Positions 8,326 to 21,308 of a stretch of 21,308 bases of DNA are shown piece by piece. How positions within the stretch are numbered: the stretch's first letter is position 1; every line of letters starts with the position of its first letter. Origin of the DNA: a virus. The notes beneath the pieces are model-generated. The model made no database searches, had not been told where the DNA came from, and saw nothing but the letters and a program-made list of their open reading frames with translations. Made by a program: the position numbers and the translations under genes. The DNA lies in IMG/VR virus record IMGVR_UViG_3300020442_001735, positions 1 to 21,308 of that record; one strand, given 5' to 3'.

Positions 8326-8586
8326 TCACCCTACAGCGAATACTGCAACTGTTGAGGCAGCCGTAACAACTTCAATAGTATTATAATCGCCCGGAACTAC
8401 AACATAAGCATGACCATGATCATTACTTGCTGGCAGAATAACTGAGTGCTTACCATTCAGTTTAACTTCAACATCATTGTTAGAAAGGGATAGCATATGA
8501 ATGCTATAAGTATGATGCGTGATGTTAGTTTCACCATCAGCTGTTGCTAAACCTGTATCCGAGTAGACAATATGTCCATCAATCAT
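8326..8586 (-). CDS. Small beta-rich protein after portal (86 aa)
   Basis: I place the start at ATG 8586 (MIDGHIVYSDTGLATADGE...) because AGGAGG sits 4-5 nt upstream and this start overlaps the portal stop by only 8 bases. A longer in-frame reading would have to lie inside the portal gene, where its residues look like an out-of-frame shadow. The protein is mostly beta and Val/Thr/Ala-rich, with 'VKLNGKHSVILPAS' and 'AYVVVPGDYNTIEVVTAAS'. There is no signal peptide or membrane helix. Its place between portal and fibre genes suggests a small virion component such as a decoration, adaptor or fibre-base protein. I do not recognise the family. Confidence 0.65.
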   Translation of the reverse strand: MIDGHIVYSDTGLATADGETNITHHTYSIHMLSLSNNDVEVKLNGKHSVILPASNDHGHAYVVVPGDYNTIEVVTAASTVAVFAVG

Positions 8587-10195
8587 TATTTCCTCCTGTA
8601 TCTTGATTCTCGCCTCTTTCGGCTTGATCACCAGTAGTTCTTGGATCAGTTGACCCTTCCGGTGAATCTGCTCTAGCCCTTCTTGGCACAGCAGATTCAT
8701 TATTAGTATTACCGGGAGGAGCACCGGGGCCACTGCTACCCTGCTCCTTCTTTAGCTTTGTTGGGAAAGGCAAAGGCTCATCACCATCAATCCTTTCCGG
8801 CATATTCAAATCACTACGGACTTCATTCGGCGTAATAACTTCGGTACGCAAATACCTGTCATGAATCCTAGACTGAATATCCTCATCGACCAGATCAATA
8901 CGTTCAAACTTGATAGAAACCAAATCTGTGAACTCAGCCATAAGTCGGTTAAGTTTCTTCTCAATAACAGATTGATCCGGACTAATGACCTGAGTCTTGA
9001 ACGTCTTGTCAGCATCTCTAGAAACCGCAAGGTTAGCATTGTCATAAACACCTACCTTCGGGGCGGGAACCCTATTAGCAACAAGAATTTCATCCCGGTT
9101 TGACTTGCGGTACTTGTCAAATGATGCATCTTGAATACCTGCCTCAAGTTTCTCAAACTTGATATCGGTATCACCACCAAGAGAAGCTGGCAAAGGAACA
9201 ATAAGCGTTCCGTGATTTCTGCCCTTCACCTCCTGACGGAAGTAGTTGACCAACTCCTGCTTTGAACGATTGCTAAGTTTTGCACCCTTAACAATAATTG
9301 CGTAGCGTGGAATAGCCTTGTTTTCAAAGTAATCAATATTATACTCTTTAGCAAACTTATCACCAATAATAGCCGCAGCAGCAGAAACGCTTGACGGGAT
9401 ACCATAGTAAGTGTTATTTGGTGAATAAGTTTTAAAGTGAATCACTTCGTTTGGATTAGGATCTGAGTTAATCGGATCTTCCATGTCAGTGTCTTGAAAG
9501 TTTCTAAAAAACACTGCTTGAATTTTGTTGCTCTTAGCTATTTGAACATAGCCATCACGATGACGACGAATCCTCATCAAAGTTGCTGGAATGTGACCAA
9601 TATAGCCGACCTCGCCAGAATTGGTTCTACCGATCTCCATGTAGCCATTGCCGGTAGTCAGTACGTCAAGCCATACTCTAGTAATTGTTTCAATAAAAGT
9701 TTCTTCTTCATTGAAATCTTCGAATTTTTGCTCCAGATCCTGTCGGGTATCTTGAATAGCCTTTCTGACTCTGGCGAGCCTTTCAGGGTTTCCTTGAGCC
9801 TTCTCAAGCCTTCTCTTAGACTTAAGAGTTTCAGGGAATGTATAGCCTAACCCAACCGTATTCATAACTCTAGCATTTATAGCAGCATTGTGAATTGCAC
9901 TAGAATCATAAAGATCAGCAAGCGTTTCTAAATCATAAGGAGGAGTAACAACATCATAAAGGGAATAGCCATCAAGTTCTTCAGGATCGATGTACTTACC
10001 ACTTGCACCCTCAACGCCCTCATATTTTTTAGCAAGACGAGTAGCTTTACGCTTCATGCGTGAAGACAAGGATGTATACTTAACTTTCTTAAACGGATCT
10101 GAAACATCAGTCTTTCTAATTGTCTGAAAGTAATTTACATCATCAATAAACTCTTCCGAGTCACCGTCTTCCATGTGGAACATTTCACCTTTCAT
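8579..10195 (-). CDS. Portal protein
   Basis: The 538-aa product forms the dodecameric ring at the head vertex through which DNA is packaged. Characteristic stretches are 'VVTPPYDLETLADLYDSSAIHN' (broken here as TPPYDLETLADLY and DSSAIHNAAINARV), 'VWLDVLTTGNGYMEIGR', 'EVIHFKTYSPNNTYYGIPSS', 'FAKEYNIDYFENKAIPRYAI' and a C-terminal 'RSDLNMPERIDGDEPLPFP' clip/crown-like region. These fit the SPP1/HK97-like PBSX-type portal family in order and length. The last ~50 residues are Gly/Pro/Asn-rich and probably disordered. AGGAG lies 6 nt before ATG 10195, and the gene overlaps its upstream neighbour at that point. No terminase gene lies upstream; a 117-aa gene and RNR occupy that place instead. Confidence 0.9.
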   Translation of the reverse strand: MKGEMFHMEDGDSEEFIDDVNYFQTIRKTDVSDPFKKVKYTSLSSRMKRKATRLAKKYEGVEGASGKYIDPEELDGYSLYDVVTPPYDLETLADLYDSSAIHNAAINARVMNTVGLGYTFPETLKSKRRLEKAQGNPERLARVRKAIQDTRQDLEQKFEDFNEEETFIETITRVWLDVLTTGNGYMEIGRTNSGEVGYIGHIPATLMRIRRHRDGYVQIAKSNKIQAVFFRNFQDTDMEDPINSDPNPNEVIHFKTYSPNNTYYGIPSSVSAAAAIIGDKFAKEYNIDYFENKAIPRYAIIVKGAKLSNRSKQELVNYFRQEVKGRNHGTLIVPLPASLGGDTDIKFEKLEAGIQDASFDKYRKSNRDEILVANRVPAPKVGVYDNANLAVSRDADKTFKTQVISPDQSVIEKKLNRLMAEFTDLVSIKFERIDLVDEDIQSRIHDRYLRTEVITPNEVRSDLNMPERIDGDEPLPFPTKLKKEQGSSGPGAPPGNTNNESAVPRRARADSPEGSTDPRTTGDQAERGENQDTGGNND

Positions 10196-10638: not shown

Positions 10639-12567
10639 CTATCTGATCGGACAAGCCCCACCTTCACACTCAAGGTCTTCAAGAGCGTACTCGTTGATCT
10701 CGTCAACAAAAGTGATTTCTTTAATCTTACCTTTCAAGCGATTATACTCTTCTTTGCTAATTTCTTCGTATGGAGCAAGAGCGAATCCATGATCACTGTG
10801 CAACAGGAATGAAACCGACTTCAAACGGTCTTTGTAATTCTTCTTCATCCACTCCTGAATCTCAGGCAACTCTTCCTTGTGATAGTAAACAGTCACAGAA
10901 ACATTGTTGTCAGCCCAAGCAGCCTGCGCCTTAGCAACCCACTCCAACTGATCTACAGCCTTCAAATCCTTAGCAAGCACAGCGTGCTCAGGAGTTTCGC
11001 ATGGGAACGAAACAACACAAACAGTATGGTTTTCTTTACCATCAAGACCAACATCATACTGAACGTCGTAACCCTTATCACGACAATAGTTCACTAAAGG
11101 ATCACTGCTTCCCATACGAACTCTACGGATATAGTACTGGGAATAGGCAGGATGAATACCCGGAGTAACACCGGCAAGCAAACTCAAGGTTCCAGAAGGC
11201 TTTACAGTTGTCAACTTAATTGACTTGTTAATGCCCTTCTCCGCTGACCATTCCTTATCGTACTCTCGCAGTTGCTCGTAGCAATCAGAAATCCAAGACA
11301 GTTGTTCTTCAGTTGATTGCATCCAGCCAGTGATACCCTGACCCAGACGACGGTTGCGAGCAATAACAGCTTGTGACTTAGCATAAGGATATGAGAGTGT
11401 CGTAATAGCCTTCTGCGTCTTATACAGCAGACGACTAAGATCCATCAACTCTTCTTTACTTTCAATATTAGGTAAGAAGATCTCTGCAAGGTTGCAAGGC
11501 TCACCATCTTCAAGCCCAATCTCACCGCATGGATTTGTACCAATTACTTTGCTGTCATTGACTTTCTCACCCGTGCGACCAGTCTTACGAATAAGCTTGC
11601 GATTAATAAGTCCGTAAGGCTCACCTGTGCCATCATACCCCTTCCAGAATTCATCAATAATTTCATCGTATGAATCAGCAAAGATTGAGTTGTTTGAATT
11701 ACCACGCCATGCAGGAATATCACCCTTTGACCAATTCTTTGCACGCAGATACAAAAAGTCATCGGGATCACCAATAGCAATCTGTGCCGAACGACGAGCA
11801 GAACCTGCTACAACAATTTTACCAATAATATTACAAATATCCAAGGCATCAACAGACCGGAGTTTCTTACCTACACGATCATCAAGAATAGTACAGATAT
11901 CAGCGATACCTTCAATTAAAACTTCAGGCCCAGATGCAGTGCCACCAAAAGTCTTAAGTGGTGCGCCGAACCCTCTAATCAGAACAGTGCTATAGGTAAA
12001 AGACTCTCCACTATGGAAATAGCTTTGAAGAACTTTTCCAAGCAAAGCCGACCAACCCTGTCGAGAATCAGGAACAATAAAATCAGCATCGTTTGTTCTT
12101 TCATGAACAATACTCTCTACTTCACGAACCTTAGGTAAATCGTGGACAATGGCTCTTTCAACAGAAAAACCAACTCCACCACCGACCATAAGGTGATCCA
12201 TCAAAAACTGAAAATCTTCTACTTTTGAAATGGTAGTCATCCAGCAGTTAACCAATGAGACACCGCTCATTTTGCGAACGAGTGGCGTACCAAGTTGCCA
12301 AAGAGCACGACCAGCAAAAATGCCCTTCAAATTAAAAATATAATCGAAAAGACGTTCAGCCTCTTCCTTTGTGTAACCAGCACCAATTTCTTGAGCACCA
12401 TTGATTGCCCTAGCAATCGTCTCAAACCAATACTCTTTACGACCAAGAGCTTCTAAATCTCTTGAATAGGTACGACGGTAAACAATCTCCCCCATACCGT
12501 TGAAACCCCAAGGTGGGGTCTTGTTTGTATACTGAGCAACAAACTCAGGTGTAATAACATTTTCCAT
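10639..12567 (-). CDS. Class II (adenosylcobalamin-dependent) ribonucleoside-triphosphate reductase
   Basis: The 642-aa enzyme reduces ribonucleotides to deoxyribonucleotides using a cobalamin-derived thiyl radical. Its motifs match the monomeric RTPR type: C108 in SLVNCWM (redox cysteine), the active-site motif NPCGEIGLEDGEPCNL at 345-360 with C347 as likely thiyl radical, E349 and C358 (second redox cysteine), VKPSGTLSLLAGVTPG in the C-terminal third of the barrel, and the terminal CEGGACPIR (C634/C639), the swinging dithiol pair that regenerates the active site. It is a little shorter than the Lactobacillus enzyme (about 740 aa). AGGAGG lies 4 nt before ATG 12567. It has its own promoter-like element and terminator, so it looks like an independent unit inserted between a glycosyltransferase gene and the head genes. 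The short predicted leader leaves no space for a cobalamin riboswitch. Confidence 0.95.
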   Translation of the reverse strand: MENVITPEFVAQYTNKTPPWGFNGMGEIVYRRTYSRDLEALGRKEYWFETIARAINGAQEIGAGYTKEEAERLFDYIFNLKGIFAGRALWQLGTPLVRKMSGVSLVNCWMTTISKVEDFQFLMDHLMVGGGVGFSVERAIVHDLPKVREVESIVHERTNDADFIVPDSRQGWSALLGKVLQSYFHSGESFTYSTVLIRGFGAPLKTFGGTASGPEVLIEGIADICTILDDRVGKKLRSVDALDICNIIGKIVVAGSARRSAQIAIGDPDDFLYLRAKNWSKGDIPAWRGNSNNSIFADSYDEIIDEFWKGYDGTGEPYGLINRKLIRKTGRTGEKVNDSKVIGTNPCGEIGLEDGEPCNLAEIFLPNIESKEELMDLSRLLYKTQKAITTLSYPYAKSQAVIARNRRLGQGITGWMQSTEEQLSWISDCYEQLREYDKEWSAEKGINKSIKLTTVKPSGTLSLLAGVTPGIHPAYSQYYIRRVRMGSSDPLVNYCRDKGYDVQYDVGLDGKENHTVCVVSFPCETPEHAVLAKDLKAVDQLEWVAKAQAAWADNNVSVTVYYHKEELPEIQEWMKKNYKDRLKSVSFLLHSDHGFALAPYEEISKEEYNRLKGKIKEITFVDEINEYALEDLECEGGACPIR

Positions 12568-13918: not shown

Positions 13919-14746
13919 GTGAACCGTGTTACGTATACCTTGTATAACCAGTCTAACGGTCACACTATCATAGAATCAGGGATTCTGTGTGAATTAGAAA
14001 AACTTTTTTGGAATCCACATTCTATCCGGACTTGTGATAGCATCAGATTTATGACTGATAATAGAGTAATTCCGGTTTTAAACGCAGGGAGTGTTAAACT
14101 ACTTGACTGCTTTGGTTCTGACATTGACATTGTAAACTCTGCTCGCGTTAGCTTTGCATCATACCAGTCAGAAATGGACGAAAAAGGACTGGGACTTATT
14201 AACTTTCTTATTAAAAATAAGCACGCAACACCATTTGAACATGTTGTTTTTAAGTTTTATATTAAATGTCCGATCTTTGTCGCCAGAGAGTGGTTTAGAC
14301 ATCGCTGGTCATCATTCAACGAAATGAGCATGAGATATTATGTTCCTGACAGCTTAGATTTCTTCTACCCAGCAGAAGATTCTATTAGAAAACAAGTCGG
14401 TAAACCCGGCCATTATACTTTTGAACAAATTGATGATCCAGCAGTTTACGATTTTGTTACAGAAACGTATGAGTCTGTTTACAAGCAAGCAGAATCGGCA
14501 TATTATGAAATGCTTGATGCAGGGATTGCAAAAGAAATTGCACGCAGCGTTCTGCCAGTTGGTCAATATACAGAGTTTATCTGGACTGTGAATTTAAGAA
14601 GTTTACTAAATTTTGTTTCATTGCGAAACGATAGCAACGCTCAAAAAGAAATAAGAGAATACGCAGATGTTGTTGAAAGAATTGCAAATGTCCATGTCCC
14701 AAACACAATGGAAGCATTTGTCAACAATAACAGAGAGGCGATCTGA
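13919..14746 (+). CDS. thyX: Flavin-dependent thymidylate synthase ThyX with N-terminal extension
   Basis: ThyX makes dTMP from dUMP using FAD, NADPH and methylene-tetrahydrofolate. The signature RHRxxSxNxxSxRY is present as RHRWSSFNEMSMRY at 127-140. Further family features are 'VNSARVSFASY', 'KHATPFEHVVFKF', 'IAKEIARSVLP' and the C-terminal 'LRNDSNAQKEIREYA'. The conserved family part begins near residue 45 (MTDNRVIPVLNAGSVKLLD). Before it lie 44 extra residues (VTYTLYNQSNGHTIIESG...) in frame and protein-like, starting at GTG 13919. ATG 14051 is the alternative start, but neither has a Shine-Dalgarno. The stop overlaps the next ATG (TGATG). It acts with the RNR and dCMP deaminase in this window to supply dTTP. 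Confidence 0.95.
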   Translation: MNRVTYTLYNQSNGHTIIESGILCELEKLFWNPHSIRTCDSIRFMTDNRVIPVLNAGSVKLLDCFGSDIDIVNSARVSFASYQSEMDEKGLGLINFLIKNKHATPFEHVVFKFYIKCPIFVAREWFRHRWSSFNEMSMRYYVPDSLDFFYPAEDSIRKQVGKPGHYTFEQIDDPAVYDFVTETYESVYKQAESAYYEMLDAGIAKEIARSVLPVGQYTEFIWTVNLRSLLNFVSLRNDSNAQKEIREYADVVERIANVHVPNTMEAFVNNNREAI

Positions 14747-19436: not shown

Positions 19437-19447
19437 AAAGAGGAATG

Positions 19448-20050
19448 ATGCTCCAATACAACATTATAAAACGACATGAGCAAAAATGGGTGCAAGCATG
19501 TGACGCACTCGCACCAATCTTCTCCACATGCTCAAAACGACAATACTTCGCCGTCATAATTGGCAGCAACAAAAGACTAATCTCTCAAGGATACAACGGG
19601 TCACCGCCGGGAGCACGCCATTGCACACAAGGAGCTTGCCCAAGAGCACAAGAAAACTCGCCATCAGGCTCAATATACGACAACTGCATTGCAACACACG
19701 CAGAAGCAAACGCCATCATGTGGGCAGACCCAATAGCCAGACAAGGAGCCACACTCATCATCAACGGCTCACCATGTTACAGTTGCGCCAAACTCATCGC
19801 CAACTCAGGAATCACCCGTGTCATAGGCAAACACGACGACACCTACCAAGACCAACAACGAGTCATAAACTACCTGAGAGAAAACAGAATCGAAACGATT
19901 CTGCTGAAAAACAAAGAAACCCGCAAAACACATACCCCTATCTTCTATCCAACAGAACAAACAACATCGCCTATCCCTAGACACTTCCAAATACCTAACA
20001 CCAAAACCCCGCCAGACAACCTCCCCGAAGACAACCACCCAGTCCTCTAA
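19448..20050 (+). CDS. dCMP deaminase (zinc-dependent, ComEB-like)
   Basis: The enzyme deaminates dCMP to dUMP, the substrate of the ThyX encoded here. Zinc and catalytic motifs are present: 'CIATHAEANAIMWA' (HAE, with the proton-shuttling Glu) and 'INGSPCYSCAKLIANSGI' (PCxxC). 'SQGYNGSPPGARHC' and the extra Cys/His of 'CTQGACPRAQE' match the second, structural zinc region of dCMP deaminases. I use ATG 19448 since AAAGAGG lies 4 nt before it; an adjacent ATG at 19445 is too close. After residue ~150 the C-terminus (~50 residues) is Pro/Thr-rich and probably disordered, longer than usual. The coding strand is rich in A and C and poor in T and G, unlike the other plus-strand genes, suggesting different origin or a different replication history. 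Confidence 0.9.
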   Translation: MLQYNIIKRHEQKWVQACDALAPIFSTCSKRQYFAVIIGSNKRLISQGYNGSPPGARHCTQGACPRAQENSPSGSIYDNCIATHAEANAIMWADPIARQGATLIINGSPCYSCAKLIANSGITRVIGKHDDTYQDQQRVINYLRENRIETILLKNKETRKTHTPIFYPTEQTTSPIPRHFQIPNTKTPPDNLPEDNHPVL

Positions 20051-20289
20051 CTTTCCCCCAACTTTAACAAATATTTTTCCTAAGGAAACACAGACCCAAT
20101 ATTTCCTAAAATTTTAATATGTATCCGAGAAAGGCTATGCGTGCCCTAGCGCGCTGCTGCGCCCCTGTGTGGGGTAGGGTCAATGTCACTTGCAAATGCA
20201 ATAAAGAAATCTTTGCCTAAAGCGTGGAAAGTGTGTTTGGAGATGGTATCGTGTTTGTTAGTGGGAAGTACCCACAGGAAAGGGAAGAA
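20051..20289. other. Intergenic region with AT-rich repeats and a composition switch
   Basis: No gene is supported here. The first ~80 bp are AT-rich and hold two imperfect copies of AATATTT(TT)CCTAA (20070-20083 and 20098-20109), the first running into TTTCCTAAGGAAA (20077-20089), a 5-bp-arm palindrome. From about 20138 the DNA becomes GC-rich (CTAGCGCGCT at 20147-20156). TTGCAAATGCAA (20190-20201) is another small dyad. No terminator for the deaminase and no clear promoter for the next gene can be named. Confidence 0.5.
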
Positions 20290-20670
20290 ATGAAAGCAAT
20301 CACTATCAAGACAGCAACCGCAACGGTCAGCCCCGAAGGGGTCAAGATTACCGGCGCAGATATCGCAACGGCGCACGCTAACGTCGTAGCGTGGGCGAAC
20401 TCTGACGCTAAGCGTTCGACCTACTCCGACGAACGGGTCGCCATTGTCGCCGGTCTTATCGCAATCGCTCGCACCGGCTCCGGTTCTATCCTCGTCAATG
20501 TTGCCGACGTTTGCGAGCCGGTCACCGATGGCAAGTGGAACGATGGGGCGGCTCTCGCTCGGTGGCTCCGCTCCGCCGGTTGCGCCGGTTGCGCCGGTGT
20601 TGCTCCGCTCTCCGTGCGTCAATCCCGCACCGGCAAGGGTTCGCCGGTGTTCTCGGTGACCCTCGGCTAA
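20290..20670 (+). CDS. Hypothetical protein (126 aa) in GC-rich segment
   Basis: I choose ATG 20290 (MKAITIKTATATVSPEGVKI) because of the purine-rich AGGAAAGGGAAG just before it; the frame is open to 20224 without a better site. The third codon positions are mostly G or C, quite unlike the phage genes to the left, which supports coding in this frame and a different origin. The sequence has 'VSPEGVKITGADIATAHANV', 'ERVAIVAGLIAIARTGSGS' and 'ALARWLRSAG' followed by a Cys-Ala-Gly repeat and 'PLSVRQSRTGKGSPVFSV'. The GCAGCAG stretch comes from a 9-bp tandem repeat (GCCGGTTGC from 20575). The C-terminal layout could be a small winged helix, but I do not recognise the family. A strong hairpin follows directly. 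Confidence 0.65.
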   Translation: MKAITIKTATATVSPEGVKITGADIATAHANVVAWANSDAKRSTYSDERVAIVAGLIAIARTGSGSILVNVADVCEPVTDGKWNDGAALARWLRSAGCAGCAGVAPLSVRQSRTGKGSPVFSVTLG

Positions 20671-20744: not shown

Positions 20745-20999
20745 ATGAAAGCAAGAACCGCTCATATCATCGAAGTAGCAATCGCACTGGCAACTAGCGC
20801 GCTAGGTCTGTCAATCTTCACCGGCATCGTTTGGAAATATGCCAGTGATGGAGATACAGAAACCGCCGCGGTGTTCTGCATCATCGGGGCGTTCACGTTC
20901 GCCGCCGTTGCCGGTGCTGTGTTCGACATAATCCGAGATAGTCGCCATGACTACCTCGTCAAGACCGGCAAGCGTGACCCCTACCGCTACTGGCGGTAA
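20745..20999 (+). CDS. Small membrane protein with two TM helices (84 aa)
   Basis: From ATG 20745 the product reads MKARTAHIIEVAIALATSAL... Hydrophobic segments at about residues 8-29 (VAIALATSALGLSIFTGIVW) and 41-62 (AAVFCIIGAFTFAAVAGAVF) are joined by a short acidic turn (DGDTE), and the C-terminus is charged and polar (DSRHDYLVKTGKRDPYRYWR). By the positive-inside rule both ends should face the cytoplasm. GC-rich third codon positions match the preceding 126-aa gene. The stop codon (20997-20999) overlaps the first, degenerate DnaA-like box. The Shine-Dalgarno is weak (AAAGAAACGAAACA). I do not recognise a family; possible roles include holin-like or superinfection-exclusion protein. Confidence 0.65.
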   Translation: MKARTAHIIEVAIALATSALGLSIFTGIVWKYASDGDTETAAVFCIIGAFTFAAVAGAVFDIIRDSRHDYLVKTGKRDPYRYWR

Positions 21000-21209
21000 T
21001 CCACAGGTTGTCCCCACCTTGTCCACAGGGTGGGGATAACATGTTTGTCCACAGGCTGTGGAAAACCACTTATCCACAACATATCCACAGGCTTATCCCC
21101 AGCTTATCCACAATCCACAGGGTTATCCACACCTGTGGATAAAGTTATCCACAATATCCACAGAGTTATCCACAGGTTGTCCACAGGGTTATCCACAGGC
21201 TGTGGATAA
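20997..21209. repeat. Dense, helically phased DnaA-box array (candidate replication origin)
   Basis: Eight perfect DnaA boxes (TTATCCACA) occur: plus strand at 21070, 21104, 21123, 21145, 21166 and 21189; minus strand at 21134 and 21201 (left coordinates). Nine more 9-mers differ by one base, including three TTGTCCACA (21019, 21045, 21177), the form typical of actinobacterial oriC, plus ATATCCACA (21081, 21154), TTATCCCCA (21093 and minus 21031), TAATCCACA (20997) and minus TTTTCCACA (21057). Two weaker ones lie at 21008 and 21111. Left edges step by mostly 11-12 bp (range 9-14, ignoring 21111), about one helical turn. Boxes 21123/21134 and 21189/21201 are facing pairs forming near-perfect palindromes. 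The AT-rich end of the window could be the unwinding element. Function is inferred. Confidence 0.85.
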
Positions 21210-21214
21210 GTCGG

Positions 21215-21261
21215 CGGGTGTGCGATTAGCTCCTTCGTCGCAGCACACCCGTGGTTTTTTT
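21215..21261 (+). terminator. Rho-independent terminator to the right of the DnaA-box array
   Basis: CGGGTGTGC (21215-21223) pairs perfectly with GCACACCCG (21243-21251) around a 19-nt loop, followed three bases later by seven T (21255-21261). It would stop transcription crossing the box array from the left. Confidence 0.75.
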
Positions 21262-21308
21262 AACGTTAAAGCCTAGACTTTATTATGCATTTTTTAACGT
21301 TCAATTGA
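21256..21308. repeat. AT-rich tract with two TTTTTTAACGTT repeats
   Basis: TTTTTTAACGTT occurs at 21256-21267 and 21290-21301, 34 bp apart. The first extends into the 12-bp palindrome TTTAACGTTAAA (21259-21270), the second into TCAATTGA (21301-21308). The tract is strongly AT-rich. It could be an origin unwinding region or a promoter/operator for a gene beyond the right edge. Confidence 0.5.

Follow-up and report, generated by a model that had tools for sequence, protein, structure and literature searches.

Probable initiator-binding sites in a phage contig

Why would a tailed phage carry so many closely packed sites for DnaA, the replication initiator of its host? The question is raised by an intergenic locus near one end of the window, the whole 21,308-bp stretch analysed here, which is a linear virus record carrying tailed-phage genes. 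A scan that allowed up to one mismatch to TTATCCACA revealed 17 boxes within 213 bp (20997-21209). Eight of them are perfect and nine carry one mismatch, exactly as counted in the original prediction, and its total of about 19 is reached with two further boxes at two mismatches (21008 and 21111). Thirteen of the 17 boxes lie on the + strand and four on the - strand. The genes and elements referred to below are as follows.

1227-2255: capsid-type protein gene
8579-10195: portal gene
10639-12567: class II ribonucleotide reductase (RNR) gene
13919-14746: ThyX gene
elsewhere in the window: methyltransferase-like gene
19445..20050, + strand: dCMP deaminase gene, the synteny anchor with the related loci L003 (83%) and L005 (71%)
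20290..20670, + strand: orphan ORF of 126 aa, also listed from an upstream GTG at 20224
20745..20999, + strand: small ORF of 84 aa, hydrophobic in its first two thirds, with a stop codon that abuts the array
21007..21040: dyad with a 15-bp stem, GTTGTCCCCACC-TTGTCCACA-GGGTGGGGATAAC, in which two inverted box-like sequences enclose one box
21070, 21104, 21123, 21134 (- strand), 21145, 21166, 21189 and 21201 (- strand): perfect boxes from the scan against TTATCCACA
21189..21209: perfect palindrome TTATCCACA-GGC-TGTGGATAA, two perfect boxes that converge where the array borders the hairpin
21214..21262, + strand: terminator-like hairpin CGGGTGTGC...GCACACCCG with a T run, immediately after the array, recognised from sequence and fold (it falls outside a stem scan with a loop limit of 8)
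21259-21270 and 21293-21304 (one mismatch): two copies of the palindrome TTTAACGTTAA(A), flanking TTTATTATG at 21279-21287

The array is thus bounded by the 84-aa ORF on one side and by the hairpin on the other, and, enclosed as it is by a stop codon and a terminator, it is probably transcribed. No initiator gene is recognisable beside it in the window, as had been stated before. The 84-aa ORF has no match in Pfam or PHROGs and no homologue in L003 or L005. Likewise, the 126-aa orphan ORF has no family match and, with 20224-20670 as the query, no homologue in the viral contigs, L003 or L005.

The array is genuine and beyond chance. Base composition predicts about 0.06 boxes per 213 bp, against the 17 found, and the window as a whole holds 23 matches where 5.85 are expected, a number reached by none of 100 shuffles. 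Among 120 viral loci with a three-box pattern, sampled from the matches listed, the maximum was 14 boxes in 213 bp. From the letters of the boxes we strongly infer that DnaA binds here, and DnaA is very probably the ligand of the array.

Distribution among related phages

The lineage was found by a search with the dCMP deaminase of the window. In L005 (contig G004, 23.7 kb), whose deaminase is 71% identical, about 18 boxes occupy the position that matches the window (L005:11850-12122). They lie about 1.35 kb past the deaminase and are followed by a comparable hairpin and then by small ORFs over about 8 kb. At their ends next to the hairpin, the palindrome of the window included, the two arrays can be aligned over 47 bp at 85% identity.

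A more distant member, G018 (97.5 kb), was reached via a 22-mer common to the window and L005 arrays. Its capsid and RNR are 59% and 39% identical to those of the window, its DnaE is 49% identical to that of contig G002, and it shares a small-ORF family with L005. Here about 19 boxes (75,871-76,245) lie inside an island of small ORFs, the genes of which run mostly opposite in direction to the rest of the genome.

The remaining member, L003 (contig G002, 70.3 kb), has a deaminase 83% identical to that of the window and no array in the corresponding gap, which measures about 80 bp and separates a small hydrophobic ORF from a hairpin similar to those of the window and L005. Thus, the array is present in three of the four lineage members with a readable region. 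Outside this census are L002, L006, L234 and L249, whose contigs break off no more than about 300 bp past the deaminase match; that of L004 runs on for about 0.9 kb. Presence in close relatives, which the original prediction had made a test, gives a mixed result: the array is absent from the close relative G002 and present in two other relatives, L005 and G018.

These comparisons also bear on whether the array is an assembly chimera or a fragment of a host oriC joined to a phage contig. The window array ends only 100 bp from the contig end, and GC content is higher in the last 2 kb of the window, as such a junction would have it. Yet in L005 the same arrangement is internal to the contig, with phage genes on both sides, and the final 50 bp of the window already carry the TTTAACGTTAA repeat of L005: the segment 21259..21304, right after which the window contig ends, is the first unit of the repeat family that fills gaps farther downstream in L005 (12871-17768). 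The chimera, and with it a mis-assembled junction with host DNA, was rejected on the strength of L005 and retains a negligible probability.

A related observation comes from L307, the start of the 93.8-kb contig G013, which carries a more distant deaminase relative and begins inside a short run of DnaA boxes. This start suggests that DnaA-box arrays break assemblies and are hence under-counted.

Spacing of the boxes

The steps between successive box starts in the window are 22, 12, 14, 12, 13, 11, 12, 11, 19, 11, 11, 9, 12, 11, 12 and 12 bp. Eleven of the 16 are 11 or 12 bp, which agrees with the spacing first reported and corresponds to gaps of 2-3 bp. In vivo, E. coli DnaA is found mostly at paired boxes set 2 or 3 bp apart, and one extra base pair between the boxes makes its binding sharply weaker (PMC11317965). 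Since such gaps mean steps of 11 and 12 bp, the array can be read as double DnaA boxes strung together, with the 2-3 bp gaps that allow cooperative binding by the rule from that study (PMC11317965). The E. coli sites share this spacing with the array, but they are pairs at single promoters, whereas the phage array is a near-continuous chain with boxes in both orientations.

The original prediction described the array as helically phased. With a 10.5-bp period, phasing is partly supported in the window (resultant length 0.54, Rayleigh p ~0.007); it is not seen in L005 (0.15, p ~0.67), and the resultant in G018 is 0.39. The best-fitting periods are 12.1 bp in the window, 12.0 bp in L005 and 13.4 bp in G018. 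Fixed 10.5-bp phasing was therefore rejected as a defining trait because it is lost in the relatives. The recurrent trait is the 2-3 bp gap between boxes rather than one fixed helical face.

Cellular origins had been offered as a contrast, with irregularly spaced boxes, and this contrast needs correction. The core of E. coli oriC contains two arrays of four sites each, exactly 2 bp apart (PMC4451416). We also compared 120 cellular with 120 viral loci, each sampled among the matches listed and fetched identically. Of the 120 cellular loci with the three-box pattern, 32 have at least 6 boxes per 213 bp and the richest has 13; a DnaA sequence signature occurs within the 8-kb locus in 10 of these 32, and a locus with such a signature nearby reaches 13 boxes. 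Both the E. coli chains and these cellular loci indicate that regular spacing is not foreign to cells.

Box letters and likely hosts

The arrays differ at the third box position, which was left free in a count that imposed the core TCC[A/C]CA in the search. This letter is A in 13 boxes, G in 4 and T in 1 in the window; A in 7, T in 6 and G in 5 in L005; and G in 11, T in 6, A in 3 and C in 1 in G018. The other letters stay constant, the search itself having fixed part of the core. E. coli, Vibrio and Bacillus have TTATCCACA as their high-affinity box, and Streptomyces and Mycobacterium have TTGTCCACA (PMC4285127). As the third letter is the one that differs between the boxes of different bacteria, its shift suggests that the arrays may be tuned to the DnaA of different hosts. 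It may also offer a sequence clue to the hosts of uncultured phages.

By portal, capsid and DnaE (the latter from G002), the closest named phages are Streptomyces phages, including Comrade (Stanwilliamsviridae), so actinobacterial hosts are likely, and the host of the lineage probably belongs to the Actinomycetota. Comrade itself offered no comparable array, only one adjacent pair of boxes in a non-coding stretch.

Possible titration sink or replication origin

Taken together, these sequence features suggest that the array probably captures host DnaA in order to block the host or else to replicate the virus. Both models had been proposed from the start and both remain sensible. Our best explanation, held tentatively, is a cooperative capture array for host DnaA whose most likely function is that of a titration sink, in tailed phages of probable Actinomycetota hosts. 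The presence of the array, its recurrence in the lineage and the grammar of its boxes are established. We infer the sink function from the position of the array, the number of boxes and their patchy distribution, and we consider it slightly more likely than an origin. The initial observation is confirmed, and its interpretation is supported in part.

As a sink, the chained double boxes, spaced at 2-3 bp, would take up numerous host DnaA molecules in adjacent positions. A multicopy phage genome with about 17-19 sites per copy would then draw DnaA away from host oriC and from DnaA-controlled promoters, and host initiation would be held back, phage copy number being assumed in this scheme.

Titration of this kind is known from E. 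coli. The datA locus, which binds DnaA, contains two consensus boxes and four with one misfit; multicopy datA disturbs initiation, and plasmids with DnaA boxes delay it (PMC5835720). Like datA-type titration/DDAH loci, the array is a cluster of consensus and near-consensus boxes outside oriC, and with eight perfect and nine one-misfit boxes against two and four it has about four times as many consensus boxes. For its part, datA needs an IHF site between two of its boxes (PMC5835720); the actinobacterial equivalents are different.

The sink is placed ahead because a close relative lacks the array, because the replication genes are distant and because the array belongs to a variable island of small genes. 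The G002 gap lacks it in spite of 84% DNA identity to the window in the dCMP-deaminase region, an argument from one genome, and in G018 it lies about 33 kb from the DnaE gene, inside the variable small-ORF island.

The same facts count against a host-DnaA-dependent phage replication origin, which we regard as possible. On that account, DnaA would fill the array, melt an AT-rich stretch past the hairpin and help to load the phage or host helicase. The cluster of DnaA boxes typical of oriC-type origins is present, and box number and grammar resemble those of cellular origins, which contain 5-19 boxes, with 19 in S. coelicolor (PMC4285127). Streptomyces oriC is the closest parallel in this respect, having a comparable box number (19), boxes of the TTGTCCACA/TTATCCACA type and many close near-consensus sites (PMC4285127, PMC4451416). 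It differs in being chromosomal and spread over up to about 950 bp, whereas the phage array packs 17 boxes into 213 bp, where no AT-rich unwinding element was identified with confidence.

An AT-rich stretch does occur 40-100 bp past the array, after the hairpin, in both the window and L005 (72% AT in the last step of the window contig and 60-70% at L005:12180-12280, places that are also promoter-like gaps). However, AT-rich gaps occur throughout the small-ORF module, and beside the G018 array none stands out at 250-bp steps. The replication genes of G002 include DnaE, a DnaB-like helicase and primase, with no initiator recognised among the ten ORFs scanned, a point in favour of an origin.

Elsewhere, two unrelated phage contigs have arrays of 7 boxes (L031:11215-11295) and 6 boxes (L033:6834-6946) that lie 55 and 13 bp, respectively, from lambda-O-like initiator genes. 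This favours an origin for arrays of this kind in general. A microvirus, too, has a box array 5' of its Rep gene. In our lineage, on the other hand, the G018 array is not near DnaE, and the region upstream of the missing array in G002 is 84% identical in DNA. The location between a stop codon and a terminator, and hence probable transcription, also speaks against an origin.

A skew minimum at the array had been expected of an origin, and GC skew passes it without inflection: none of the three arrays (window, L005, G018) coincides with a turning point, although in phages, whose skew tracks gene direction, this test is weak. The minima lie at about 14.0 kb in the window and about 4.5 kb in L005, and in G018 the skew climbs steadily through 76 kb.

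If the sink reading is extended, the arrays would form a DNA decoy against the host initiator, namely an exchangeable sink of 17-19 boxes in Actinomycetota phages, with box letters tuned to the host and with phage copy number shutting off initiation of the host chromosome. We put this forward as a possibility of lower standing than a sink as such. Phages attack host replication using proteins. Neither a pure-DNA decoy for DnaA nor a phage origin borrowing DnaA at such a scale was found in the literature searched, where the one case of a phage DnaA array was an Ori-Finder prediction for a Pseudomonas phage (PMC11512268). At 213 bp the fragment is short and easily moved, which opens DnaA binding, titration and origin function to separate tests in a laboratory strain.

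Less likely readings: regulation, packaging and RNA structure

Two other explanations start from the surroundings of the array. It could be a DnaA-responsive transcriptional or nucleoid element controlling the adjacent small-gene module, given that in the window it adjoins promoter-like TTTAACGTTAA...TTTATTATG units. We find this quite improbable: the position of the array relative to genes differs in G018, in L005 about 750 bp separate it from the first exact TTTAACGTTAA unit, and the box count is far above the need of known DnaA-regulated promoters.

It is also unlikely that the array serves something other than DnaA, whether a phage DNA-binding protein, packaging or, after transcription, a structured RNA. 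Packaging is brought to mind by the terminase, the nearest large gene in 12 of 28 other viral array loci with at least 6 boxes, and by the arrays of T7- and SP6-like phages at or near genome ends. In this lineage, however, the array is not near the terminase: in G002, TerL lies at about 39.7-41.4 kb and the gap matching the array at about 66 kb, which speaks against a packaging-end array. Moreover, the repeat unit is the DnaA box itself, set at the gaps that DnaA prefers, and it varies at the letter that distinguishes the DnaA boxes of different bacteria.

As for RNA, the + strand folds better than shuffles, with z-scores of -6.9 in the window (20997-21262) and -8.9 in L005 (11850-12175), and somewhat better than permutations of boxes and gaps. 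Permutations folded as well in 6 of 200 cases for the window and 0 of 100 for L005, and in 0-4 of 100 in a second run (+ strands). Inverted boxes fold well by construction, and the UTR position is lost in G018. We therefore rejected an RNA element: the strong z-scores follow in large part from the inverted boxes, and a modest excess over permutations stays unexplained.

Arrays in other phages and gap repeats

Smaller DnaA-box arrays occur in unrelated phages, namely SP6-like Klebsiella phages, Berlinvirus, Arthrobacter phages (some 50 bp short of the record end) and microviruses (beside Rep). Those of the SP6-like Klebsiella phages vB_KpnP_ZK1 and Koku and of the T7-like Berlinvirus phages A7 and nasanit resemble the window array in consisting of repeated TTATCCACAGG units. 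They differ from it in having fewer boxes, usually with longer steps, and in lying near terminal repeats or terminase. Repeats at or near record ends were seen in SP6-like, T7-like and Arthrobacter phages (MK685668.1:24-115, PV105567.1:50435-50481 and MH910041.1:56388-56432), and ZK1 (OK625527.1, L303, L306) has one box pair near both record ends, as in terminal repeats.

A terminase, usually no farther off than about 1.4 kb, is the closest large ORF to the arrays in L029, L031, L039, L043, L047, L058, L072, L076, L100, L116, L125 and L135, a raw count made without a control set; several of these apparently come from one TerL group. The association was not found in the literature searched and may be a separate finding. 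A plasmid parallel was also sought, and a BLASTN comparison of the array with 72,556 plasmid records produced no match at 1e-4, a weak test with such short repeats.

The small-ORF modules carry repeats of their own. In L005 (12865-17768), TTTAACGTTAA has 60 strand matches (about 30 sites) against 0.7 expected, mostly between small ORFs and often around TTTATTATG or CTTTATGG, and looks like a phage-specific promoter/operator family. In comparable gaps (L003:3440-8151), the array-less L003 carries a gap repeat of its own, CTAACCTAAC/GTTAGGTTAG together with ACTTTATG. The layout is the same and the word is different, as if the specificity of the regulator differed between the relatives. In G018 (L446:7532-9430), several ORFs begin VNN(T/A), and the gaps before them are similar and contain words like GTGAACA/TTGTTCATC, which may be the gap repeat in a third version.
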